44,218 nt of DNA from a virus: IMG/VR virus record IMGVR_UViG_3300032116_000410, positions 1 to 44,218 of that record; one strand, given 5' to 3'. Positions 30,605-42,694 of the stretch are shown here, in pieces (the stretch's first letter is position 1; each line of letters opens with the position of its first letter). Under the pieces are notes generated by a model, which saw nothing but the letters and a program-made list of their open reading frames with translations, ran no database searches and was not told where the DNA came from. The translations under genes and the position numbers were made by a program.

Positions 30605-30733
30605 TTAAATTACTTCGTATTCGTCTTTGCCCACACCGCATTCTGGGCATAAAAAATCTGCAGGAAGTTCTTCCCATTTACCTTCTGTTTGATCATCGTG
30701 GATATGACCACAAACTACGCATACGTGTTCCAT
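30605..30733 (-). CDS. Rubredoxin, 42 aa
   Basis: The frame from ATG 30733 to TAA 30605 encodes MEHVCVVCGHIHDDQTEG and ends LCPECGVGKDEYEVI. The iron ligands are C5, C8, C29 and C32 (CxxCG...CPxCGVGKDEYE), which is the rubredoxin signature; it is shorter than the usual ~52 residues because the loop between the two pairs is reduced. Rubredoxin carries one electron. The ATG shares its A with the TAA stop of the rubrerythrin gene (TAATG), so the pair is translationally coupled. In most bacteria this domain is the C-terminus of rubrerythrin itself, so this is a split version. Confidence 0.88.
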   Translation of the reverse strand: MEHVCVVCGHIHDDQTEGKWEELPADFLCPECGVGKDEYEVI

Positions 30734-31182
30734 TATAGGTTCTCCAATACTTGTTTATACGCATTAGCATGACGCTCTTCAACTTTCTTAAGAGCAGCAA
30801 AACGCTTTTCTGCTTTCTTAAGAACTTCTAAAAATTGTTCTGCGTGTTCTTTTGATTCTTGAATTTGATTGCTGGCCTCAAGCATTGCTTTTGTATTGCC
30901 CTCATGCTCAGCAGCTCGTTTGAATTCAGGATACATTTCAGTATACTCATAAGTTTCACCGTCAATTGCTTTCTGTAAACATTCTTTGGTAGATGGTTTA
31001 CCGATTAGCAATTCTAAATGACCCCATGCGTGTTTAATTTCTTGATCTGCAGTATGTTCAAAGTGTTTGGCAACATCTTCAAACCCTTCTTCACGAGCAA
31101 TCTTAGCGAAATATCGATACTTGATATGAGCCATGGATTCGCCAGCCAATGCGCTCTCAAGATTTTTTAATGTAATAGACAT
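30733..31182 (-). CDS. Rubrerythrin-like diiron protein
   Basis: I start at ATG 31182, with AGGA upstream; the longer frame would run into the tRNA-Leu gene. The 149 residues form a four-helix ferritin-like domain: AGESMAHIKYRYFAKIAREE (E15), TADQEIKHA (E48, H51), GETYEYTEMYPEF (E76, E79, E82) and ESKEHAEQF (E109, H113). These are the expected diiron ligands. Rubrerythrins reduce hydrogen peroxide using electrons from rubredoxin. The usual C-terminal rubredoxin domain is absent and is encoded by the next gene. In an early phage operon it may blunt oxidative stress in the infected cell. Confidence 0.87.
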   Translation of the reverse strand: MSITLKNLESALAGESMAHIKYRYFAKIAREEGFEDVAKHFEHTADQEIKHAWGHLELLIGKPSTKECLQKAIDGETYEYTEMYPEFKRAAEHEGNTKAMLEASNQIQESKEHAEQFLEVLKKAEKRFAALKKVEERHANAYKQVLENL

Positions 31183-31201
31183 AATTTTCCTAATATAAAA
31201 A

Positions 31202-31286
31202 TGGTACCTGAGACCGGAATCGAACCGGTACACCTTGCGGCGAGAGATTTTAAGTCTCTTGTGTCTACCTATTTCACCACTCAGGC
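31202..31286 (-). tRNA. tRNA-Leu(TAA)
   Basis: Class II cloverleaf with encoded CCA; loop CTTAAAA gives TAA; a proper variable arm (CGCCGCAAGGTGT) is present. It lies between the MazG-like and rubrerythrin genes. Confidence 0.95.
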
Positions 31287-31638: not shown

Positions 31639-32066
31639 GCATATTCGTAATTTACGGTATCCAAATTCTTTCTAAATTCGGTTGCACCGTTTTTAATATG
31701 AAAACGTCTTGCCATTTCGGTTGGTGGACTTAAAGTAACAAAACGCTTTATATGGGGTTTGTTTAAAACAATATCGTTTCTTGCTTTAAATATAAGTTCA
31801 CGTCCAGCACCTGGAGTATAACTCCAAATGGTGTAGAATATAACAGTAGATGGGGATGCAGAAGTTCTAAATAATTCAGAACAAGATGTTGGAATGTCAT
31901 CCATGTAAGCAACACAAACTACTGCTTGCGGCTTTTCATCTTTCATTAAAATTAAAACTTCTCTATTTTCGCTGATTCTAAAGTCTACAGGAATTTCAGG
32001 GCGAACGGGGTCGTCCTTAATTAAGTTTAATATTGGATCAGACAAATTAGATGGTTTGTATATCAT
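31635..32066 (-). CDS. GNAT-like acetyltransferase family protein, 143 aa
   Basis: I prefer ATG 32066 (MIYKPSNLSDPILN) to the upstream in-frame TTG at 32078; neither has a good Shine-Dalgarno. The sequence (DDPVRPEIPVDFRISENREV, AVVCVAYMDDIPTSCSEL, FYTIWSYTPGAGRELIFKAR, RFVTLSPPTEMARRFHIKNG) matches a conserved T4-like phage family. Its order of strands, the PGAGRELI segment (a likely acetyl-CoA loop) and the FHIKNGA end suggest a GNAT fold. The substrate is unknown. A TATAAATA sequence lies 36 bases upstream of the ATG. Confidence 0.75.
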   Translation of the reverse strand: MIYKPSNLSDPILNLIKDDPVRPEIPVDFRISENREVLILMKDEKPQAVVCVAYMDDIPTSCSELFRTSASPSTVIFYTIWSYTPGAGRELIFKARNDIVLNKPHIKRFVTLSPPTEMARRFHIKNGATEFRKNLDTVNYEYA

Positions 32067-32101
32067 GATTAGGTACAAATTGACAGTAGGCTTTATGTTA
32101 T

Positions 32102-32109
32102 TATTTATA
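32102..32109 (-). promoter_or_regulatory. Possible T4-type late promoter
   Basis: TATAAATA on the minus strand, 36 bases before ATG 32066. It would give the acetyltransferase-like gene late expression in addition to read-through. Confidence 0.6.
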
Positions 32110-32148
32110 CCTAAACTATCAAAATTTTTCTTATGTATAAAAATATTT

Positions 32149-32781
32149 TTACTTAAATTTGGGGCCTAGTACCCACCATACTACAGATTTGCGAATACCT
32201 TTTTTAATGGGTGTTACTCTGTGTTTTACAAATGACGGGAATGCTATAATTCTGCCTCGTTTTTGTTCTGCCGCAATATATGGGCCACCTGTATCAAATT
32301 CAAGGTCACCCCCTTTAAACGCGTTTGTATCAGACAACACCAATGTAAAACTTAATTTTCTTGGTAGTATAAATGGTTTATCTTTATTAAGGACATCTTC
32401 ACCATACATTATATCTGTATGGAAGTTGTAATGATCATTCTTTTTGTTATATTCAGTGTATTGCAGATGGGAATATCCAGTTAAATCAAAATTATAGAAA
32501 TAATTATTGATATGTACCGAAATGGTATTTATTTTTTCAAATAGCCATTGATTTGTTTCGTTTATGTGGACAAATTTAACATCTGATTTTCTAAGATCAT
32601 CGAAGGAGTCTTCTCCCTTTTTACCAAAAACTGCTCCGGGGGTTAGTTTTCCAGTTTCTTCTGATGAAAAATATTCTTCTAATTTATCAAGTTCTTCATC
32701 CGTGAAAAAGCCATCCCAAAATACATATGGATAAAGTACACAATTGGTTACTTCTGGATTATTTGAAATAAAACTACGCAT
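32149..32781 (-). CDS. 2OG-Fe(II) oxygenase (PKHD-type)
   Basis: The 210-residue protein has the iron and 2-oxoglutarate ligands of the family: HTD at 121-123, H187 in FPSFVKHRVTPI and R197 in KKGIRKSVVWW. The core SFTLVLSD, FKGGDLEF and RGRIIAFPSF follow in order. Related prolyl or aspartyl hydroxylases are common in aquatic T4-like phages, with unknown targets. It has its own early promoter and an AGGAAT ribosome site close to the start. A second oxygenase and two halogenase-like genes follow within 4 kb, so a shared oxidative pathway is possible. Confidence 0.85.
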   Translation of the reverse strand: MRSFISNNPEVTNCVLYPYVFWDGFFTDEELDKLEEYFSSEETGKLTPGAVFGKKGEDSFDDLRKSDVKFVHINETNQWLFEKINTISVHINNYFYNFDLTGYSHLQYTEYNKKNDHYNFHTDIMYGEDVLNKDKPFILPRKLSFTLVLSDTNAFKGGDLEFDTGGPYIAAEQKRGRIIAFPSFVKHRVTPIKKGIRKSVVWWVLGPKFK

Positions 32782-32802
32782 AAGATTCCTTTAATATATA
32801 CT

Positions 32803-32831
32803 ATTATATTATATTACAACTTATCTGTCAA
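32803..32831 (-). promoter_or_regulatory. Sigma70-type early promoter
   Basis: TTGACA (32826-32831) and TATAAT (32803-32808), 17 bp apart; no TG extension. The leader to ATG 32781 is ~15 bases. It diverges from the plus-strand J-domain gene. Confidence 0.82.
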
Positions 32832-32841
32832 TTACTTTTGG

Positions 32842-32847
32842 TAGAAT
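32842..32847 (+). promoter_or_regulatory. Possible extended -10 promoter for J-domain gene
   Basis: TGG-TAGAAT on the plus strand, 19 bases before ATG 32866, with no clear -35. The adjoining GAATAAATA also resembles a degenerate late promoter. Confidence 0.4.
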
Positions 32848-32865
32848 AAATAAAATTTATCTAAA

Positions 32866-33441
32866 ATGAACCCCTATGAAGAATTAGACGTTTCAAGAAA
32901 TGCTACTACCGAAGAAATACGGCAAAGGTATAGGATACTTGCACAACTTCATCATCCAGATAAAGGCGGAGATGAGGAAATTTTTAAACGTATAAAACTT
33001 GCATATGAAATACTAAGTGATACTATTCGTAGAAAAGAATATGATAAAACTGGTAAAACTCATCCAACTCGAGATATACGGAATGAATCTTTAGAAATTA
33101 TTGGTCAACTGTTATTCAGAATTGTACCAAATTGCAATCCTGAAATAGATAATTTAATTGGTATAATGACCGAAGATATATTCAAAACAAAAGAAGAGTT
33201 AACTGTAAATATTGCTATTTGCGAGACTCATATATTAAAAATTAATAAAGTAATAAATCGATTAAAAATTAAAACTGATGATGAAAATTTAATTTTAAAA
33301 TTTTTAGAAAAACAATTAGATACTCGTTTACAAGAAAATTTAGAGTTTAAAAGAAAAATAGATGTATGTGAGGTTGTATTGTCTATTCTTAAAGACTATG
33401 AATATGGATTAGCTAGTTTAATGCCGCCTCTAGATAACTAA
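32866..33441 (+). CDS. J-domain protein (DnaJ-like)
   Basis: Residues 1-65 are a J domain: NPYEELDVSRNATTEEIRQR, HHPDKGG with the HPD triad at 30-32, and AYEILSDTIRRKEYDKTG. HPD stimulates the ATPase of Hsp70. The Gly/Phe and zinc regions of full DnaJ are absent; instead ~120 residues form a Lys/Glu/Ile-rich coiled coil. It could recruit host DnaK to a phage client. It is the only plus-strand gene in the window. Its end overlaps the convergent oxygenase gene by 12 bases. Confidence 0.85.
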   Translation: MNPYEELDVSRNATTEEIRQRYRILAQLHHPDKGGDEEIFKRIKLAYEILSDTIRRKEYDKTGKTHPTRDIRNESLEIIGQLLFRIVPNCNPEIDNLIGIMTEDIFKTKEELTVNIAICETHILKINKVINRLKIKTDDENLILKFLEKQLDTRLQENLEFKRKIDVCEVVLSILKDYEYGLASLMPPLDN

Positions 33442-34053
33442 ATCACTTATTTTATTTTTATCAGATTGCCCCAAAGTGCCTTTTAAGAAAACATTGAACG
33501 CCAAACAATATCTATCATCACTACTATTACATTGTGAAACTTCGTGATCTAAATTAGATGGGAATAAAAATATATCATTGTTTTGTGGAATGAAGGAAGA
33601 GCTTTCGCAGTTAAATATATTCCATTCGTTATATTCAGGCGAAATAATTTTTGGTATCACATTTGTATATGTTTTATAAACTGAAAAAATGCCAGAATCA
33701 TTATCAGTCTGAATATAAACTGTTCCACTAAAAATACTGTTAGTATGATGATGTCGATGCGCCGAATCACCTCTAATATGTTTCATTACCCAAGAATTTG
33801 TTATATAAAAAGATGTGTTATTTGCAATATTAAGAACATTTCTAGTATAGATGCCAACATGATTTTCTATTTCTTTTTTTAATGATTCAAATATATCATT
33901 ATCTAAAACTTTAGTATCAACAGAAATGTACCCATTATTACTATCAATTCTTTTATAATTTAATTTTTTTATATTTTGCTTATCAAGCGAAGAAACATTA
34001 ACCTTAGAAGAATAAAAAGGAATTGGAAAAAGTTGTAAAAGATTGTGTTGCAT
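33430..34053 (-). CDS. 2OG-Fe(II) oxygenase (TIGR02466/Oxy_5-like), 207 aa
   Basis: I start at ATG 34053, one base after the stop of the upstream halogenase-like gene; a longer frame would overlap it. The start LLQLFPIPFYSSKV is the usual opening of this family. The ligand region reads TNSWVMKHIRGDSAHRHHHT NSIFSGTVYI (two segments; H101 and H103), then IFLFPSNLDHEVSQC (H170) and R181. The second ligand is His (HxH) rather than the Asp of classical HxD, as is usual in this subgroup. It is the third gene of a coupled set with two halogenase-like enzymes, which suggests a shared substrate. Confidence 0.8.
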   Translation of the reverse strand: MQHNLLQLFPIPFYSSKVNVSSLDKQNIKKLNYKRIDSNNGYISVDTKVLDNDIFESLKKEIENHVGIYTRNVLNIANNTSFYITNSWVMKHIRGDSAHRHHHTNSIFSGTVYIQTDNDSGIFSVYKTYTNVIPKIISPEYNEWNIFNCESSSFIPQNNDIFLFPSNLDHEVSQCNSSDDRYCLAFNVFLKGTLGQSDKNKISDLVI

Positions 34054-34054
34054 A

Positions 34055-35221
34055 CTATAGATATTTTTTAAGATTGTCTTTAAGGCCAAGGCCTTCAATG
34101 TTTTGATGAAAAGAAGATGCTGTCCATGTTGAATATGAGTCTATAAACGGCGCGTAAAACAGATTCCGATGTTCTTCCTGATAAGATAAATCTATAATAT
34201 TTTTAAATTTATCAGTAGTCATTGCCTTTTCTATGCAATCAGTTCCTCGTTTTTCTGCGAAATCCCAAAAATTAGAATTAAATTTTGATCCTGCCGAATA
34301 ATGCAGCATGATCATTGTTTCTGTTTCGATAATAAAATTTAAATATTCTTTATTTGCATCTTCAGGTGAAACTATGCCGTTCCAAACATCAAATGCTTTC
34401 CGTTGAATATTTTCTATAATACCAATAGAGGTTGCCTCTAATGGTTCAAGGAAGAATGAAGCGTTTCCATTATAAACTACTCTCTTTGAATAATTATTTT
34501 TATGGTAATAATTGTTAAAAGAGAATGATGACGTAGTATCACTAGGTATCAGATTGTTGGTTTGTATTATCTTTAATGCGTCTTCCTTGATTTCATCTAA
34601 AGAACTTATACTATTGTTGTACATATACCCAATAGAACATCTATTCATAAGAGGAATGCCAAAATACCATCCGTGTTTTTCCGCATTGCTAAGAGTATAC
34701 TGAAATTTTGGAGAATCCCAAAAACACTGCGTTACATATACTGAATTTACAGGTATATATTCTGCAGTATAATAATTACTATAATCTGCAGGTTTGCCAG
34801 AACAATCCATAATAAAATCTGCATCTATAGAATCATACGAATCTACGTGTTTATCTATAATCGTAACTCTGCGGTTATTCTCAAGATGGTTGAAAATATA
34901 TTGTTGTAATTTAACTGCGTTAAAGTGATAACCTACCTGCCCTGGATAAAAATGGTGGAAAAATGAACTATGTTTGTTCCCCCAATTTTCTTTATATATT
35001 CCAGTTTTTAAAGTACCGTCTACATTTAATAAATCAAATGTATTAAAATTTGCGTTATTATATAGCTGCGCTGGAAATCCCGGTAAGGATCCTTCTCCTA
35101 CGGCTTGTGGTTTTACACCGGAGTCATAATAAAAATCTATTACCCAGTCAGTGTGTCTAATAAAATGTAATGCAGACAAAACACCGGCAGTCCCTTTTCC
35201 TATAATTGCTAATTTTTTCAT
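34055..35221 (-). CDS. Flavin-dependent halogenase-like protein, copy 2
   Basis: The 388-residue protein has the FAD-binding GxGxxG (GKGTAG at 8-13), VGEGSLP at 41-47, LKTGIYKENW with K72 where the catalytic Lys of tryptophan halogenases lies, GWYFGIPL at 184-191 (the WxWxIP motif with Phe for the second Trp) and FLEPLEATS at 257-265. This is the Trp_halogenase family. A cyanophage member (VirX1) was shown by others to halogenate many small molecules. Here the substrate is unknown; these enzymes need a flavin reductase, not seen nearby. The start overlaps the stop of the first copy by ATGA. Confidence 0.87.
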   Translation of the reverse strand: MKKLAIIGKGTAGVLSALHFIRHTDWVIDFYYDSGVKPQAVGEGSLPGFPAQLYNNANFNTFDLLNVDGTLKTGIYKENWGNKHSSFFHHFYPGQVGYHFNAVKLQQYIFNHLENNRRVTIIDKHVDSYDSIDADFIMDCSGKPADYSNYYTAEYIPVNSVYVTQCFWDSPKFQYTLSNAEKHGWYFGIPLMNRCSIGYMYNNSISSLDEIKEDALKIIQTNNLIPSDTTSSFSFNNYYHKNNYSKRVVYNGNASFFLEPLEATSIGIIENIQRKAFDVWNGIVSPEDANKEYLNFIIETETMIMLHYSAGSKFNSNFWDFAEKRGTDCIEKAMTTDKFKNIIDLSYQEEHRNLFYAPFIDSYSTWTASSFHQNIEGLGLKDNLKKYL

Positions 35222-36396
35222 ACATTAAATTCTTTGCATAGTTTATCAAAAATACCTAAATTATAAATGTGATCTTTCATAGAAGGCTTGATTGGCCACA
35301 CTGAAAACGTAGTATTTTTTAGAGTTCTAATATCTAATGAGTCTGACATTTTAACCATTTTTAATGTATCTATAAAGTGCTCTTTATAATCGGATGTATG
35401 AATTGATTTAATTTTGTTTTCGCCTCGCTTAATAGCAAAATCCCAAAACGGCGTATCGAATTTAGAACCCGCATAATAGTGCAGCATTAAAAATGTTTCT
35501 ATTTTTTCAAAATGCAACGTATAATCGTTATTTACCTTTTCAACATCTTTATCATCTACCCAAATATCATACGCAAATCGTTGAACCATATCCATAGAAG
35601 ATATAGATGTTGCTTCTAAAGGTTCTAAAAAGAATGAGGCGTTGCCTCCGTACCCAACTCGTTTATCAAAATTCTTTTTTCTGTAATAATTTTTAAATTG
35701 TAGATGGCTTGTTCTGTCAGGAACAAGATTTAATCCTTCAAGTATAACCGGAACATCTTTTTTAACTTCATCTAATGATGATACGTTTGTATTATACAAA
35801 TAACCAATAGCGCATCTATTAGTTAATGGTATTCCAAATACCCAGCCGTGAGGCATTGCTATTGCTTCCGTGTGGGTGAATCTTGCGTTTTCCCAGTTAC
35901 ATTGTGTAACATATGCAGCATTAACGGGAATGTAATCAGATATTGTATAATCGGTATAATCTTTTGGGGCTCCGGAGCAATCAAAAATATGATCGCTATC
36001 AATGGCATCATGGGCAACATTTTTATGAATAATCTTAACTCTGGGCTGTTCTCCCATATAACTAATAATAAAATTTTGAAGATCTACTGCATTAAAATGA
36101 ATTGCGTGTCCCGATACGCTTCCAAATACATGCATGAAATCTTTGCCAAATTTTCCCCAATTAGTTTTATTGACACCCATTTTAACAGTGCCATTTAATT
36201 TAAGTAAATCGGTGTATTTAAAATCAATGTTTTGGTCTAATAGTGTGGGTAATGCAAGATCGGACCCTTCCCCCACAGCTTGAGGATTAATATTAGGATC
36301 AAACACCCAATCAATTTCCCAATCAGTCCATCTTAAAAAATGAGTAACTGCTACACACCCTGCGGTACCTCTGCCAATAATTGTTATTTTTTTCAT
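35218..36396 (-). CDS. Flavin-dependent halogenase-like protein, copy 1
   Basis: The 392 residues match the downstream copy along their length. GRGTAG at 8-13, VGEGSDLALP at 41-50, VKMGVNKTNW with K72, GWVFGIPL at 184-191 and FLEPLEATS at 257-265 are all present. As in the other copy, the second Trp of WxWxIP is Phe. The two differ mainly after ~residue 330, where substrate contacts would lie, so they may act on different positions or compounds. It starts 3 bases after the stop of the RNase H-like gene. Tandem copies in one operon suggest duplication followed by divergence. Confidence 0.87.
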   Translation of the reverse strand: MKKITIIGRGTAGCVAVTHFLRWTDWEIDWVFDPNINPQAVGEGSDLALPTLLDQNIDFKYTDLLKLNGTVKMGVNKTNWGKFGKDFMHVFGSVSGHAIHFNAVDLQNFIISYMGEQPRVKIIHKNVAHDAIDSDHIFDCSGAPKDYTDYTISDYIPVNAAYVTQCNWENARFTHTEAIAMPHGWVFGIPLTNRCAIGYLYNTNVSSLDEVKKDVPVILEGLNLVPDRTSHLQFKNYYRKKNFDKRVGYGGNASFFLEPLEATSISSMDMVQRFAYDIWVDDKDVEKVNNDYTLHFEKIETFLMLHYYAGSKFDTPFWDFAIKRGENKIKSIHTSDYKEHFIDTLKMVKMSDSLDIRTLKNTTFSVWPIKPSMKDHIYNLGIFDKLCKEFNV

Positions 36397-36398
36397 AG

Positions 36399-36881
36399 TT
36401 ATGCTGCCTCTTGGTATGCTAAAATTTCTTTTAATCTATCTGCACAATATGTTGCTGCAAATGCCTGGGGCTTAACCATAGGTACAACATTGCAAGTACC
36501 TTTGATATAACCAACTGCTTGTTGTATTACAAACGAGCTATTATGTTTAACATCCGGATTAATATCCAAATGGATTTCAACATCTTTATCTTCAATACAA
36601 TCTACAATTTTGTGATACAATTCTGCAACCTTATAAACTTCATTCATTAGACGCATAGAAGGTTTGCTATTCTTTGCGTCATAATCCAATTCAGTTTGTA
36701 CTTCCCCAAAAATTTTGCAACCATGACATCCATCAATATGTACTACAATAGCAAGAGTATAATCAGCATACCATTTTTCATTACGACGATATCTTTCAGA
36801 ATCTGCTCCAATATAAATTTTAGTTTCAGGAGACTGTGATACGATAAATGATTTTACTTCTTCGATATTAATTTTTTGCAT
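36399..36881 (-). CDS. RNase H-like protein (YkuK/DUF458-type)
   Basis: The 160-residue protein reads IYIGADSERYRRNEKWYADY, TLAIVVHIDGCHGC, EIHLDINPDVKHNSSFVIQQ and VGYIKGTC, which fits the RNase H-like DUF458 family (Bacillus YkuK). Candidate metal ligands are D27 in GADSE and the Asp residues of HLDINPD. The family is predicted to be nucleolytic, and the phage role is unknown. It is followed closely by the halogenase pair, and tRNA-Gly with an early promoter lies just upstream. Confidence 0.75.
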   Translation of the reverse strand: MQKINIEEVKSFIVSQSPETKIYIGADSERYRRNEKWYADYTLAIVVHIDGCHGCKIFGEVQTELDYDAKNSKPSMRLMNEVYKVAELYHKIVDCIEDKDVEIHLDINPDVKHNSSFVIQQAVGYIKGTCNVVPMVKPQAFAATYCADRLKEILAYQEAA

Positions 36882-36893
36882 AATACACCTTAA

Positions 36894-36967
36894 TGGAGCG
36901 GGCGAAGGGAATCGAACCCTCGACTTTAGCTTGGAAGGCTAAGGTAATACCATTTTACGACACCCGC
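36894..36967 (-). tRNA. tRNA-Gly(TCC)
   Basis: Cloverleaf with encoded CCA; loop CTTCCAA gives TCC. First gene after the early promoter at 36987-37015. Confidence 0.94.
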
Positions 36968-36986
36968 GTTAACTATCTATACTCTT

Positions 36987-37015
36987 ATTATAACAGTTTT
37001 ATATATTATTGTCAA
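36987..37015 (-). promoter_or_regulatory. Sigma70-type early promoter
   Basis: TTGACA (37010-37015) and TATAAT (36987-36992), 17 bp apart, with TG extension. It drives tRNA-Gly and probably the RNase H-like and halogenase genes. Confidence 0.85.
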
Positions 37016-37034
37016 TAAAATATTCTATTATTTT

Positions 37035-37108
37035 TGGCATCCCCCAAGAGACTCGAACTCTTACTAACGGTTTTGGAGACCGACGTGCTGCCATTACACT
37101 AGGGAGAA
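37035..37108 (-). tRNA. tRNA-Trp(CCA)
   Basis: Loop CTCCAAA gives CCA; encoded 3' CCA. The first acceptor pair is mismatched (T-T) as I align it. Confidence 0.9.
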
Positions 37109-37114
37109 ACAAAC

Positions 37115-37189
37115 TGGTGCCGACTATCGGATTCGAACTGATGACCTATCGCTTACAAGGCGATTGCACTACCACTGTGCTAAGTCGGC
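37115..37189 (-). tRNA. tRNA-Thr(TGT)
   Basis: Complete cloverleaf, acceptor GCCGACT/AGTCGGC, encoded CCA; loop CTTGTAA gives TGT. Confidence 0.95.
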
Positions 37190-37194
37190 TAATA

Positions 37195-37272
37195 TGGACC
37201 GCCCTGAGGAATTCGAATCCCCAACCTCTTGGTTCGTAGCCAAGTGCTCTAATCCAATTGAGCTAAAGGCGG
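37195..37272 (-). tRNA. tRNA-Arg(ACG)
   Basis: Complete cloverleaf with encoded CCA; stem CTTGG/CCAAG and loop CTACGAA give ACG. Confidence 0.94.
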
Positions 37273-37278
37273 ATAATC

Positions 37279-37353
37279 TGGTGGTGATAGTAAGAGTCGA
37301 ACTTACACTTGACAGCGTATGAAGCTGGTGCACTACCATTATGCTACATCACC
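37279..37353 (-). tRNA. tRNA-Met(CAT), elongator-like
   Basis: Cloverleaf with encoded CCA; loop TTCATAC gives CAT. It lacks the Ile2-like features of the other CAT tRNA and the GGG/CCC stem of initiator tRNAs. Confidence 0.88.
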
Positions 37354-37469
37354 ATATAGAGGCACTCTCGAATGCAAGCCTAGGAGGAGTCAAGCTCTGA
37401 AACTTTTGCATCTGCAGATACTATGTTTCTTCTCCTGCTTTGTCTTATATCAAGAATGCTTTTATATGG
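37352..37469 (-). ncRNA. Spacer hairpin A between tRNA-Ser(GCT) and tRNA-Met
   Basis: On the minus strand the spacer starts at the CCA of tRNA-Ser (CCATATAAAAGCATTC) and ends at the first GG of tRNA-Met (GAGAGTGCCTCTATATGG). The ends pair over about 20 positions with two mismatches. The inside has GAAAC...GTTTC and GGAG...CTCC pairs. Compare elements B, C and D, which keep the stem by compensating changes. Confidence 0.6.
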
Positions 37470-37555
37470 TGGAAAGTGTGGGAGTCGAACCCACTCACCG
37501 GTTTAATCCAGTGACAGATTAGCAATCTGCTGCATTACCATCCTGCCCACTTTCC
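37467..37555 (-). tRNA. tRNA-Ser(GCT)
   Basis: Class II tRNA with long variable arm and encoded CCA; loop TTGCTAA gives GCT. Confidence 0.94.
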
Positions 37556-37559
37556 GATC

Positions 37560-37647
37560 TGGAGGAAACGGTGAGATTCGAACTCACGGACCCTTTCGGA
37601 TCGCTAGTTTTCAAGACTAGAGCCATAGACCACTCGACCACGTTTCC
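37560..37647 (-). tRNA. tRNA-Ser(TGA)
   Basis: Class II tRNA with long variable arm (GATCCGAAAGGGTCC) and encoded CCA; loop CTTGAAA gives TGA. Confidence 0.95.
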
Positions 37648-37655
37648 GAAATTAT

Positions 37656-37735
37656 TGGTGGGTGGGAGTGAGAGTCGAACTCACATTACGCGGCATATAC
37701 ATCCCCGTTTCTAACCAATTGAAATATCCCAACCC
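37656..37735 (-). tRNA. Irregular tRNA-like gene, anticodon unresolved (GTA or TAT)
   Basis: T arm (GTGAG-TTCGACT-CTCAC), D arm (TTTC...GAAA) and encoded CCA are present. The acceptor GGGTTGGGA/TCCCACCC needs a bulged T, and the anticodon stem around GGGGATGTATATGCC has two mismatches in any register. With a normal variable loop the anticodon is TAT but position 33 is G; another register gives GTA. A decayed or unusual tRNA. Confidence 0.6.
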
Positions 37736-37737
37736 AT

Positions 37738-37812
37738 TGGGCAGACGTATGAGAATTGAACTCATGATATCGGAATCACAACCCGAGGTTTTGCCACTAA
37801 ACTAACATCTGC
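37738..37812 (-). tRNA. tRNA-His(GTG)
   Basis: Cloverleaf with encoded CCA and the C73 typical of tRNA-His; loop TTGTGAT gives GTG. No G is encoded at -1 (T instead). Confidence 0.93.
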
Positions 37813-37818
37813 ATATTA

Positions 37819-37910
37819 CCATATAGAAACACTCTTGTTTGGATTCGAACCTTGTTCTAGTATTGTCTATCTGCGCTTCCCACAGTGCTGACAAGAGTGC
37901 TTTTATATGG
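37819..37910 (-). ncRNA. Spacer hairpin B between tRNA-Lys and tRNA-His
   Basis: Starts with the CCA of tRNA-Lys: CCATATAAAAGCACTCTTGT pairs with ACAAGAGTGTTTCTATATGG over 20 positions with one mismatch and one wobble. The inside carries a T-arm-like GGTTCGAATCC. No tRNA could be folded from it. Confidence 0.65.
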
Positions 37911-37983
37911 TACGAGTAGGGGGATTCGAACCCACGACCAATAGATTAAAAGTCTACTGCTCTACCAACTGAGCTATACTCGC
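37908..37983 (-). tRNA. tRNA-Lys(TTT)
   Basis: Complete cloverleaf with encoded CCA; loop CTTTTAA gives TTT. Its 5' half is overlapped by the end of the 46-aa frame. Confidence 0.95.
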
Positions 37984-38094
37984 ATTATGTTGCCTTCGCA
38001 AAGCTTTATTACTTTTACGATGGACTCCCGCTTTGCGTTGTAATGCCAAAGCAACGAAGCGATTACGTTGCTTGACGATCATCTTAAGTTTCAT
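37954..38094 (-). CDS. Tiny basic protein, 46 aa, ending inside tRNA-Lys
   Basis: ATG 38094 follows an AGGAG Shine-Dalgarno at 7-base spacing. The protein is MKLKMIVKQRNRFVALALQR, then KAGVHRKSNKALRRQHN and a tail read from the tRNA gene (ASIAQLVEQ), stopping at TAG in its anticodon arm. I recall a group of tiny basic phage proteins with RNxFVxxALxRKAGxHxKSxKAxRR, but the memory is not firm. RNA binding is plausible. The shared sequence means tRNA processing would destroy the message. Confidence 0.62.
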   Translation of the reverse strand: MKLKMIVKQRNRFVALALQRKAGVHRKSNKALRRQHNASIAQLVEQ

Positions 38095-38110
38095 TACTTT
38101 CTCCTAAAAA

Positions 38111-38184
38111 TGGAACAGGGCCCTGGGCTCGAACCAGGAACGACAGAGTCAAAGTCTGTTGAGTTACCATTACTCCAACCCCGC
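38111..38184 (-). tRNA. tRNA-Gln(TTG)
   Basis: Cloverleaf with encoded CCA and several G-T pairs in the acceptor; loop CTTTGAC gives TTG. Confidence 0.93.
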
Positions 38185-38191
38185 CTGTGTT

Positions 38192-38266
38192 TGGTCCGGC
38201 GCAGAGGAATCGAACCTCTATTGACTGCTTAGAAGGCAGCTGTATTATCCGTTATACTAGCGCCAG
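38192..38266 (-). tRNA. tRNA-Arg(TCT)
   Basis: Cloverleaf with encoded CCA; loop CTTCTAA gives TCT, reading AGA, a frequent codon in AT-rich phage genes. Confidence 0.94.
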
Positions 38267-38273
38267 CTAATTT

Positions 38274-38537
38274 TTATTCTTGTACTGCTAGAATATCTTC
38301 TTGAGAAATAATTCCCATATACTTGTCACCGTCTTTTACGACTTTAGCTTTTGTCCACATTGGATATACTACATCTCCAACTTTAACCTCATATACATCT
38401 GGACCAATTGCAAGAACAGTACCTGCTCTTGTGTTTTCATCCATACGGGCTTCACCAACATAAATACCGCTTTCGGTTTCTTTTGGCTTTTCATTTTCAA
38501 TTACTAATACTTTATCATGCAAAGGTTTATAGTTCAT
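38274..38537 (-). CDS. groES: GroES-like co-chaperonin
   Basis: The 87-residue protein follows GroES: MNYKPLHDKVLVIENE at the start, a mobile-loop region at ~18-37 with SGIYV in place of GGIVL, TRAGTVLAIGP, VKVGDVVYPMWTKAKVV and the end YMGIISQEDILAVQE. GroES caps GroEL; in T4 gp31 does this for capsid folding. Being about 10 residues shorter than E. coli GroES, it has a reduced roof region (no NGxxxP loop). It lies between tRNA-Arg and tRNA-Val and is probably expressed with them. It likely adapts the host chaperonin to phage proteins. Confidence 0.9.
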   Translation of the reverse strand: MNYKPLHDKVLVIENEKPKETESGIYVGEARMDENTRAGTVLAIGPDVYEVKVGDVVYPMWTKAKVVKDGDKYMGIISQEDILAVQE

Positions 38538-38555
38538 ATAAGCTTTCTAAAAAAT

Positions 38556-38631
38556 TGGTGCATCGTGAGAGACTCGAACTCCCGACAGCCTGCGTGTAAG
38601 GCAGGAACTCTACCAACTGAGTTAACGATGC
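38556..38631 (-). tRNA. tRNA-Val(TAC)
   Basis: Complete cloverleaf, acceptor GCATCGT/ACGATGC, encoded CCA; loop CTTACAC gives TAC. Confidence 0.95.
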
Positions 38632-38634
38632 GGT

Positions 38635-38719
38635 TGGTGGAGGTGATTGGGATCGAACCAATTGTGACATAAGTCGGAAGATTTACAGTCTCCTGCCATA
38701 CCATTACGGCGGCACCTCC
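38635..38719 (-). tRNA. tRNA-Tyr(GTA)
   Basis: Bacterial class II Tyr with variable arm, acceptor GGAGGTG/CACCTCC, encoded CCA; loop CTGTAAA gives GTA. This makes a second Tyr tRNA at 37656 less needed. Confidence 0.94.
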
Positions 38720-38721
38720 AA

Positions 38722-38797
38722 TGGCTCCCCGAGGTGGGTTCGAACCACCGACCTGCGGATTAACAGTCCGTCGCTCTACCGACTGAGCTATCAGGGA
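38722..38797 (-). tRNA. tRNA-Asn(GTT)
   Basis: Complete cloverleaf, T1 as in bacterial Asn, G73, encoded CCA; loop CTGTTAA gives GTT. Confidence 0.95.
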
Positions 38798-38804
38798 ATA
38801 AAAA

Positions 38805-38993
38805 TTACGCTTTCGCTTCTTTGCGAGCGTTCTTTTCTGCAGTAATTTCGTTGCGTCTAGCTTTTACAGCTTTTGCAAGTTCACCTAATGCCTTGCGGGC
38901 GCGAGTCCCGGCAGCACTATTACCTTTTTCGAATTTCTCGTTTTCAGCAAGATATGCTTCGAGATTTGTTTTGATGTCATTTGTTGAGTTCAT
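38805..38993 (-). CDS. Histone H1-like basic protein, 62 aa
   Basis: After an acidic start, residues ~20-62 (FEKGNSAAGTRARKALGELA, KAVKARRNEITAEKNARKEA) match small phage proteins annotated as histone H1/Hc1-like. The GTRARKAL helix is their hallmark. It is helical and basic, so it may compact nucleoid DNA or bind nucleic acid. An AGGA ribosome site precedes ATG 38993. It is embedded in the tRNA island between Pro and Asn and shares its transcript. Confidence 0.78.
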   Translation of the reverse strand: MNSTNDIKTNLEAYLAENEKFEKGNSAAGTRARKALGELAKAVKARRNEITAEKNARKEAKA

Positions 38994-39016
38994 AATTTTT
39001 CCTATGTTAAAAATAA

Positions 39017-39093
39017 TGGTCGGTGTGAAAGGATTCGAACCTCCGACCGCCTGGTCCCAAACCAGGAGCGCTACCAGACTGCGCTACACACCG
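39017..39093 (-). tRNA. tRNA-Pro(TGG)
   Basis: Complete cloverleaf, encoded CCA; loop TTTGGGA gives TGG. Confidence 0.95.
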
Positions 39094-39103
39094 ATTATTT
39101 ATA

Positions 39104-39179
39104 TGGTGGAGGAGACAGGGTTCGAACCTGCGACCTATTGCTTGCAAAGCAACCGCTCTCCCAACTGAGCTACACCCCC
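39104..39179 (-). tRNA. tRNA-Ala(TGC)
   Basis: Cloverleaf with encoded CCA; loop TTTGCAA gives TGC. The acceptor has one T-T mismatch and one G-T. Confidence 0.94.
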
Positions 39180-39273
39180 ATATTGAAACACTCTTATTCT
39201 CCATACCTTCTTGGGGATCAATCAAGGTCTTACTTCTCAGAACCTGCGTCCAGTTTAGAATGTTTCAATATGG
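39178..39273 (-). ncRNA. Spacer hairpin C between tRNA-Leu(TAG) and tRNA-Ala
   Basis: Starts with the CCA of tRNA-Leu: CCATATTGAAACATTCT pairs with AGAGTGTTTCAATATGG over 17 positions with one wobble. Compared with B, pair 7 changes A-T to T-A and pair 11 G-T to A-T, so pairing is kept while sequence changes. An inner ACCTTG...CAAGAAGGT pair is visible. Confidence 0.65.
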
Positions 39274-39347
39274 TGCCTAAGGAGAGACTCGAACTCTCAA
39301 AATTTGGCTTCTAAGACCAACACGTATACCAATTCCGTCACCTAGGC
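39271..39347 (-). tRNA. tRNA-Leu(TAG) with very short variable arm
   Basis: The D arm (GTGACGGAATTGGTATAC) is Leu-like and loop CTTAGAA gives TAG; encoded CCA. The variable region is only about five bases (ATTTT) where bacterial Leu tRNAs have a long arm. Confidence 0.88.
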
Positions 39348-39628
39348 AAATGCTCTGCGTCCTCCGGCGGTAATTATAGTACAGAAAAATATGACGCTAT
39401 CATATCTCTCACGCGTACCTTCCACCCGCTTCCCGACAAGGACCGCTCTCGTGCTGCCAACGGCCTTTAGGTTTAAAGACTACCACCCGTAAGTTACGAA
39501 CTTACTTCACTTTCTGCGGGTCACAGTAGCCAGACGTTACTCCGGCGGGTTCTAAAATGGTTGGTCCCACTTTGGGTTGCCATTTAACTTAGACTTTCTT
39601 TATGCATTTATAGACTAAGACCATAACT
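39348..39628 (-). ncRNA. Structured spacer between tRNA-Asp and tRNA-Leu(TAG), unknown RNA
   Basis: No convincing gene. GC content is higher than in the surroundings, and several hairpins are visible: AAATGG...CCATTT with an inner CCC/GGG, GTAAGTT-CGT-AACTTAC (39489-39505), and ATATGA-TAGCG-TCATAT followed by TTTTT (39384-39405, a possible terminator). CCGCCGGAG occurs twice (39362-39370 and 39540-39548). T4 also makes two small stable RNAs from its tRNA cluster; a similar role is only a guess. A 20-aa frame inside is not supported. Confidence 0.45.
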
Positions 39629-39704
39629 TGGCGGTCTGTAGGGAATTCGAATCCCTCCTACAAGCGTGACAGGCTCGCGTGCTTACCGCTAACACTAACA
39701 GACC
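39629..39704 (-). tRNA. tRNA-Asp(GTC)
   Basis: Cloverleaf with G73 and encoded CCA; stem CGAGC/GCTTG and loop CTGTCAC give GTC. Confidence 0.93.
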
Positions 39705-39920
39705 AAAATATAGATAAGCTACTCGTTTCCAGGCGAGCCCTTAATTGAGCGGTTACTCTGTCCATCTCATTTATTCAAAGTCTGTGTGCAGTGAGAGACT
39801 GCCTATCAGAGCCTGCGAGGGTATTTTTAATCCTCACGCTAACGGTTTTCTGCCACCGGATCTCTGTCGCTAATCAAACGCTATTTTAACGAAAATAGTA
39901 ACGGGATTCTTTTAATATGT
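39705..39920 (-). ncRNA. Structured leader between early promoter and tRNA-Asp, unknown RNA
   Basis: About 215 transcribed bases without a likely frame. Hairpins in reading order: CTATTTT-CGTT-AAAATAG (39881-39898), CGGT...ACCG, GAGG...CCTC, GCAGT-CTCTC-ACTGC (39788-39802) and CTCG...CGAG. The row of short stems suggests a folded RNA. It does not match tmRNA or RNase P landmarks I know. Confidence 0.45.
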
Positions 39921-39924
39921 CTTT

Positions 39925-39953
39925 ATTATAACACCTTAACACACTTGTGTCAA
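39925..39953 (-). promoter_or_regulatory. Sigma70-type early promoter, perfect consensus
   Basis: TTGACA (39948-39953) and TATAAT (39925-39930), 17 bp apart, with TG extension. It lies next to the 3' end of tRNA-Cys and drives the structured RNA and tRNA-Asp onward. Confidence 0.88.
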
Positions 39954-39963
39954 GCATTATTTT

Positions 39964-40041
39964 TGGAACCTGGAGTCAGATTTGAACTGACGACTTTACG
40001 GATTTGCAATCCGTTGCATTTGACCACTCTGCCACCCAGGC
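39964..40041 (-). tRNA. tRNA-Cys(GCA)
   Basis: Cloverleaf with encoded CCA; stem ACGGA/TCCGT and loop TTGCAAA give GCA. Confidence 0.94.
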
Positions 40042-40044
40042 GTA

Positions 40045-40082
40045 CCATTGTTTTATACACTTGGTAATGTATAAAATAATGG
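40045..40082 (-). other. Spacer hairpin D between tRNA-Glu and tRNA-Cys
   Basis: CCATTATTTTATACA, starting with the CCA of tRNA-Glu, pairs with TGTATAAAACAATGG over 15 positions with one wobble around an 8-base loop. It is a short version of elements A-C. Confidence 0.6.
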
Positions 40083-40155
40083 CGTCCCGTACCAGATTCG
40101 AACTGGTGTACTTACCGTGAAAGGGTAATGTCCTAGGCCTCTAGACGAACGGGAC
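40080..40155 (-). tRNA. tRNA-Glu(TTC)
   Basis: Complete cloverleaf, acceptor GTCCCGT/ACGGGAC, encoded CCA; loop CTTTCAC gives TTC. Confidence 0.94.
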
Positions 40156-40158
40156 AAT

Positions 40159-40232
40159 TGGTATCCGGTAGAGGTAACGCTCCTCTGTCTTTCGATTATC
40201 AGTCGAATGCTCTGCTATTGAGCTAACCGGAC
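40159..40232 (-). tRNA. tRNA-Ile(GAT) with abnormal T loop
   Basis: Acceptor GTCCGGT/ACCGGAT, D arm and loop CTGATAA (GAT) are normal; CCA is encoded. The T stem AGAGG/CCTCT closes AGCGTTA instead of the universal TTCRANN. Confidence 0.85.
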
Positions 40233-42223: not shown

Positions 42224-42694
42224 TTATGCCGCTAGTTTCATCTTATCTTTAATATATTCTACTCTATCTATCCAACCTTGTTTAGTTAGAAATCCCCATT
42301 CTCGTGTTCTCCAACCATGAATAAACAATGTCCAAGTTGGAGCAGACATTTCTAATCGGTGAAATGAGGTGGCTCTTCGCCATATAATTGAACCAGGCCC
42401 TCGCCATGTGCTTTGTTCTCCGACTTTAATACCGTGTCTGTCGAAGACCGGAGTCCATTCTGTATAACCTCCTGCAAGAATAACGGTGAGGTAGTTCCAG
42501 GGGTGGTCGTGAACGTCTCTGTCTTCGTCGGAGAGGAGGAGCTTGTGGATAAAGATGTTTGGGTAGGGTCTGACGGTATCGAATGCATTTATTTTTTCCT
42601 TAAAACATAGATAGTATCTGTGCATGTAATCTCTGCCAAATCTATCTTGGATAATACGTTTTCTATTTAGTTTTTCAAGCAATCGTAAAAGCAT
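42224..42694 (-). CDS. Cupin-fold protein, 156 aa
   Basis: The centre FIHKLLLSDEDRDVHDHPWN (H62, H64) and YLTVILAGGYTEWTP are cupin motif 1; RGPGSIIWRRATSFHRLEM with H112 and WTLFIHGWRTREWGFL are motif 2. The HDHPW...GGYxE pattern is known from phage cupins. Metal binding is likely; the reaction is unknown. Confidence 0.8.
   Translation of the reverse strand: MLLRLLEKLNRKRIIQDRFGRDYMHRYYLCFKEKINAFDTVRPYPNIFIHKLLLSDEDRDVHDHPWNYLTVILAGGYTEWTPVFDRHGIKVGEQSTWRGPGSIIWRRATSFHRLEMSAPTWTLFIHGWRTREWGFLTKQGWIDRVEYIKDKMKLAA

Follow-up and report, generated by a model that had tools for sequence, protein, structure and literature searches.

The window, by which we mean the whole 44,218-b stretch of viral DNA analysed here, makes up one entire virus record and is a fragment of a T4-like phage; its gp41 helicase fragment shows up to 84% identity to the counterparts in cyanophage relatives. 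It contains 24 tRNA genes and four very long fibre-like genes. At 36894-40232, 22 tRNA genes lie clustered and interspersed with small genes, among them a Cpn10/GroES-like gene (38274-38537). Two further genes on the minus strand are of separate note: a cysteine dioxygenase-like cupin protein (phrog_4786) at 42224-42694, which is unusual cargo for a phage, and a rubrerythrin-like protein at 30733-31233, an oxidative-stress gene that sits alongside oxygen-using enzymes in the same phage. The genes that form the subject of this analysis are as follows:

32149-32781, minus strand: OX2, the second of two Fe(II)/2OG oxygenases, with an ordinary HxD motif (FHTD; phrog_61, 1.2e-29)
32866-33441, plus strand: DnaJ-domain protein (PF00226, 1.9e-18)
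33430-34053, minus strand: OX1, Fe(II)/2OG-type oxygenase, 207 aa (PF13759, 62.9 bits; phrog_81)
34055-35221, minus strand: H2, the second compact flavin-dependent halogenase (FDH), 388 aa (PF04820; phrog_2928, 6e-65)
35218-36396, minus strand: H1, compact FDH-like protein, 392 aa (PF04820; phrog_2928, 2e-71)
36399-36881, minus strand: RNase H-like protein (PF04308, 8e-17; phrog_11311, 2.9e-51)

Read along the minus strand, the RNase H-like gene, H1, H2 and OX1 form a tight run in that order. The RNase H-like gene stops 2 b ahead of H1 and is possibly the first gene of the H1/H2/OX1 transcription unit. H1 and H2 overlap by an ATGA at 35218-35221, and the ATG of OX1 at 34053 lies one base past the H2 stop (TAG-T-ATG), the listed TTG start of OX1 at 34098 being an upstream extension within H2. 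The gene coordinates, the ATGA overlap and the one-base gap to the oxygenase given by a first-pass annotation were thus all correct. That annotation also placed a second oxygenase 0.7 kb further on, and this distance holds (648 b between OX1 and OX2). The DnaJ gene lies between them on the opposite strand, converging on OX1 and overlapping its end, which puts OX2 outside the transcription unit of OX1. Gaps of -30 to +10 b separate 13 of the 35 same-strand neighbours in the window, so the close packing of H1, H2 and OX1 is not special in this genome. G+C reaches its minimum for the window in the interval 32001-36000 (30.5%, compared with 32-42% in the rest), which is compatible with a recent arrival of the halogenase cassette.

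Both H1 and H2 score far above the Pfam cut-off of 21 bits for PF04820 (Trp_halogenase), at 122 and 101 bits respectively, while a search of NCBIfam returned no family name for either. The flavin-binding GxGxxG motif is present as GRGTAG in one copy and GKGTAG in the other, and both carry GxGTAG, VGEG, K72, GWxFGIP and E258. By alignment the H1 catalytic residues K72 and E258 correspond to K79 and E346 of PrnA, and both are found in H2 too. An AlphaFold model of H1, built on a 69-sequence alignment, reached a pLDDT of 91.7, with low confidence in the loop that bears E258 (block mean 55). Its closest match is AbeH (Z 38.6, rmsd 3.1, 359 of 392 residues aligned), with SttH (Z 38.2), PrnA (34.3), MibH (31.7) and VirX1 (30.6) also recovered, and values of about 28-38 for many other solved FDHs. 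Sequence, and for H1 the predicted fold, thus make a good case for placing both proteins in the FDH superfamily. The earlier description of two halogenase-like enzymes with catalytic landmarks in place stands: the copies are intact, FDH-type, tandem and phage-borne, and the structural model named there as a check shows the FDH fold with conserved flavin-binding motifs.

H1 and H2 are 47.5% identical, and as the first-pass annotation observed they diverge most near their C-termini, where identity over residues 321-392 drops to 23-28% as against 35-62% elsewhere. Recent tandem duplication as the origin of the pair was rejected. In a smaller, careful tree, which followed a quick 97-row tree and whose bootstrap is not fully settled, H2 groups at 99/99 with the FDH of locus L049 and not with H1, and a tree forcing H1 and H2 as sisters was rejected by the AU test (p 0.025). 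The arrangement itself is seen again in other phages, with adjacent compact FDH pairs at six loci; the L121 pair are sisters, whereas the L061 pair, like H1 and H2, come from separate parts of the tree. Judged from these phylogenies, compact tandems arose independently, in part. More broadly, FDH genes cluster: a second FDH gene was found in the flanks of 14 of 68 non-redundant loci, and 7 of the 9 records of at least 90 kb hold a single FDH gene.

Alignment of H1 and H2 with their relatives places them in a clade of compact FDHs, which the first-pass annotation had missed. Its members are 370-418 aa long (~390), compared with about 500-550 for solved FDHs, and E43, K72, W185, F187 and E258 are invariant in all 69 aligned members. 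In H1 the residues W185 and F187 belong to a WxFxIP motif. Both copies thus lack the WxWxIP with both Trp found in the free-Trp halogenases PrnA, RebH and PyrH. That the second Trp is replaced by Phe had been recorded as an exception; the substitution is real in both copies, but its presence in 69/69 members makes it a mark of the clade and not an oddity. The WxWxIP motif is thought to stop FDHs from working as monooxygenases, and its clade-wide fixed alteration is consistent with these proteins being flavin monooxygenases of FDH fold that no longer halogenate and instead, for example, hydroxylate or oxidise their substrate. Against this, the Lys and Glu tied to halogenation are invariant in 69/69 members, and we consider loss of halogenation improbable.

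The absence of the substrate insert and the short C-terminus, both clade-wide, had escaped earlier notice. Long FDHs carry a large insert of 60-90 residues after the HxF motif; this is absent from all 69 compact members, in which only 10-11 residues separate HxF from the next motif (HFNA). In RebH we take E461, F465 and N470 to be the residues that clamp Trp, with W466 as an aromatic contributor. A profile alignment shows the W466 equivalent kept in 67 of 69 compact members, whereas Ser predominates at the N470 position and both E461 and F465 align with variable positions. The compact clade accordingly has no such insert and conserves few of the Trp-clamping residues of free-Trp halogenases. 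Compared with PrnA, RebH, PyrH, AbeH and SttH, H1 and H2 therefore share the fold (Z 33-39 for most), the flavin motif, the Lys and the Glu, but are only about 20% identical to them, do not have the insert that covers Trp and for the most part do not conserve the clamping residues. From these comparisons of sequence and fold, by which alone the openness of the pocket was judged, we infer that the compact FDH pocket is wide open and that its substrate is something other than free Trp, probably bulky; with the parts that cover and clamp Trp absent, a bulky substrate is more likely than free Trp.

A phage-encoded precedent is VirX1 from cyanophage Syn10 (PDB 6QGM), which is reported in a review to have a large open active site and to accept many small aromatics (PMC8407142). 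It shares its phage origin and fold with H1 and H2 (Z 30.6), but at 531 residues it groups with the long enzymes by size, whereas H1 and H2 are of about 390 residues, are missing both the insert and the extended C-terminus, carry the Phe of WxFxIP and occur in tandem. An open site that nevertheless takes small aromatics means that openness is no proof of a large substrate. The breadth of VirX1 also lends some weight to the idea that H1 and H2 halogenate a small host metabolite such as free Trp, indole, a phenol or a signal, as has been suggested for other cyanophage halogenases of the same superfamily, and the aromatic-sandwich positions HxF and W466 are indeed retained. Since few of the residues that clamp the amino-acid part of Trp are conserved and there is no covering insert, we regard a small metabolite as unlikely.

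Other members of the superfamily act on larger substrates. MibH, whose fold H1 shares (Z 31.7), is a peptide halogenase and so exemplifies the substrate class proposed for H1 and H2, yet it is a long FDH of a natural-product cluster, and none of the genes beside H1 and H2 was recognised as encoding a precursor peptide. ChlH chlorinates Trp residues both in peptides and in a protein (PMC12518702), and SrpI binds its peptide leader at loop 104-110 (PMC10858898), which is the region shortened in the compact clade.

To gauge the distribution of the clade we ran a pattern scan of 2.9 million viral contigs, which yielded 258 viral stretches encoding compact-FDH relatives, the best 80 of which were examined; among 84,980 bacterial and archaeal species, represented by one genome each, only 3 loci were recovered. 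The scan is selective and both counts are lower bounds, but the contrast between them is strong. A cellular reservoir was rejected on closer inspection, on the strength of two of these 3 loci: one encodes an ordinary long FDH of 530 aa, and the other (L125:5001-6005), on a contig from a ‘Chloroflexi’ genome bin, lies near a phage head-protease gene, and that contig is probably viral. The compact class thus looks widespread and almost confined to viruses. Among isolates, S-RIM4 carries one clear compact-clade member at 47-48% identity. As a hint of a photosynthetic host we sought psbA, which was found in none of 12 records, all of them fragments.

Tail genes featured among the neighbours of compact FDHs, where tail assembly chaperones made up 11 of 110 adjoining proteins, and the FDH genes of S-RIM4 and S-ShM2 also precede fibre genes. 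The chaperones all trace to a single clade comprising some nine loci, however, and as a general rule the association was rejected, being only suggestive.

The first-pass annotation had envisaged a small tailoring pathway for a host metabolite or macromolecule. In such a pathway H1 and H2 would halogenate one substrate that OX1, and perhaps OX2, would then hydroxylate or desaturate. OX1 exceeds the PF13759 cut-off (62.9 against 27 bits), and its model (pLDDT 86) confirms a double-stranded beta-helix fold, matching 2RG4/3BVC best (Z 20.2), followed by OGFOD1, P4H, PHD2 and AlkB (Z 15-17.5); its nearest solved structures are thus two uncharacterised marine proteins, with protein prolyl hydroxylases next. 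The HxD/E...H triad of classical 2OG oxygenases is not found in OX1. In place of the classical HxD...H...R its metal motif reads HxH...H...R, and HxH...H occurs in 14 of 14 aligned rows including OX1 itself, with HxH also in 2RG4/3BVC. R181, the Arg for the 2OG carboxylate, is conserved in 90% or more of the aligned sequences. A three-His iron site is possible in this family, which is common in marine phages.

A pathway linking OX1 to the halogenases would fit the nearly gapless adjacency of the genes and the recurrence of the halogenase-halogenase-2OG order in two related loci (L083 and L086). Nevertheless, at most positions relative to the halogenase about 6-10% of genes encode 2OG oxygenases, and the 110 proteins adjacent to FDHs include 7 with PF13759 and 4 with PF13640, compared with 4 and 5 among 110 distal proteins. 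In the nearest cousin record, L049 (45 kb), the H2 orthologue and the neighbouring DnaJ gene are kept and the other FDH is a long one, yet a match to OX1 was not found. Published cyanophage genomes are likewise plentiful in 2OG oxygenases. As 2OG genes are not enriched beside FDHs in either the offset scan or the adjacent-versus-distal comparison, a conserved halogenase-oxygenase operon was rejected, and with tight packing general in the genome and OX2 lying past an opposite-strand gene, the coupled pathway is distinctly unlikely. On the reading we favour, OX1 stands apart from H1 and H2 as a neighbour that can be exchanged and not as their obligate partner.

We are left with a reading, to which we give about an even chance on the sequence and model evidence, that H1 and H2 are working compact viral FDHs with an open pocket, for which a bulky substrate is likelier than free Trp. 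In such a scheme a host flavin reductase would supply FADH2 to both enzymes (none was noticed in the window), hypohalous acid would form at the flavin and pass through a tunnel to K72/E258, and this site would halogenate an electron-rich aromatic group held in the wide-open pocket, for example an aromatic side chain exposed on a protein or peptide. Given that H1 and H2 differ most in their C-terminal, substrate-side parts and did not arise by recent duplication, the two would probably either serve distinct sites or substrates or associate as a heteromer. A bolder version of this reading, tentative and in our view rather doubtful, is that virus-specific compact FDHs halogenate aromatic side chains of virion or host proteins, with the tandems as two-site or heteromeric versions; no gene could be recognised as that of a peptide or protein partner.

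Both the superfamily and phage FDHs are already known. Mentions of cyanophage ‘prnA’ go back to at least 2010, with its role only guessed at, and the T4-GC 212 ‘prnA’ genes of S-SSM5, S-SSM7, S-ShM2 and S-RIM4 measure 1104-1593 nt, with two copies in some T4-like cyanophages (PMC3037559). These phages are T4-like, as is the one described here, and the S-RIM4 copy is a true compact member. Our literature search found no paper that separates out the compact clade and none that describes an ATGA-coupled FDH pair, and both the compact viral clade and its recurrent tandem appear undescribed in the literature found. A compact, nearly virus-only clade with an invariant signature and a probably open substrate side narrows the question of what phage halogenases do. 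Such enzymes are small and expressible, which also makes them candidate biocatalysts for bulky substrates, and if compact FDHs do halogenate proteins, they would represent virus-encoded protein halogenation.
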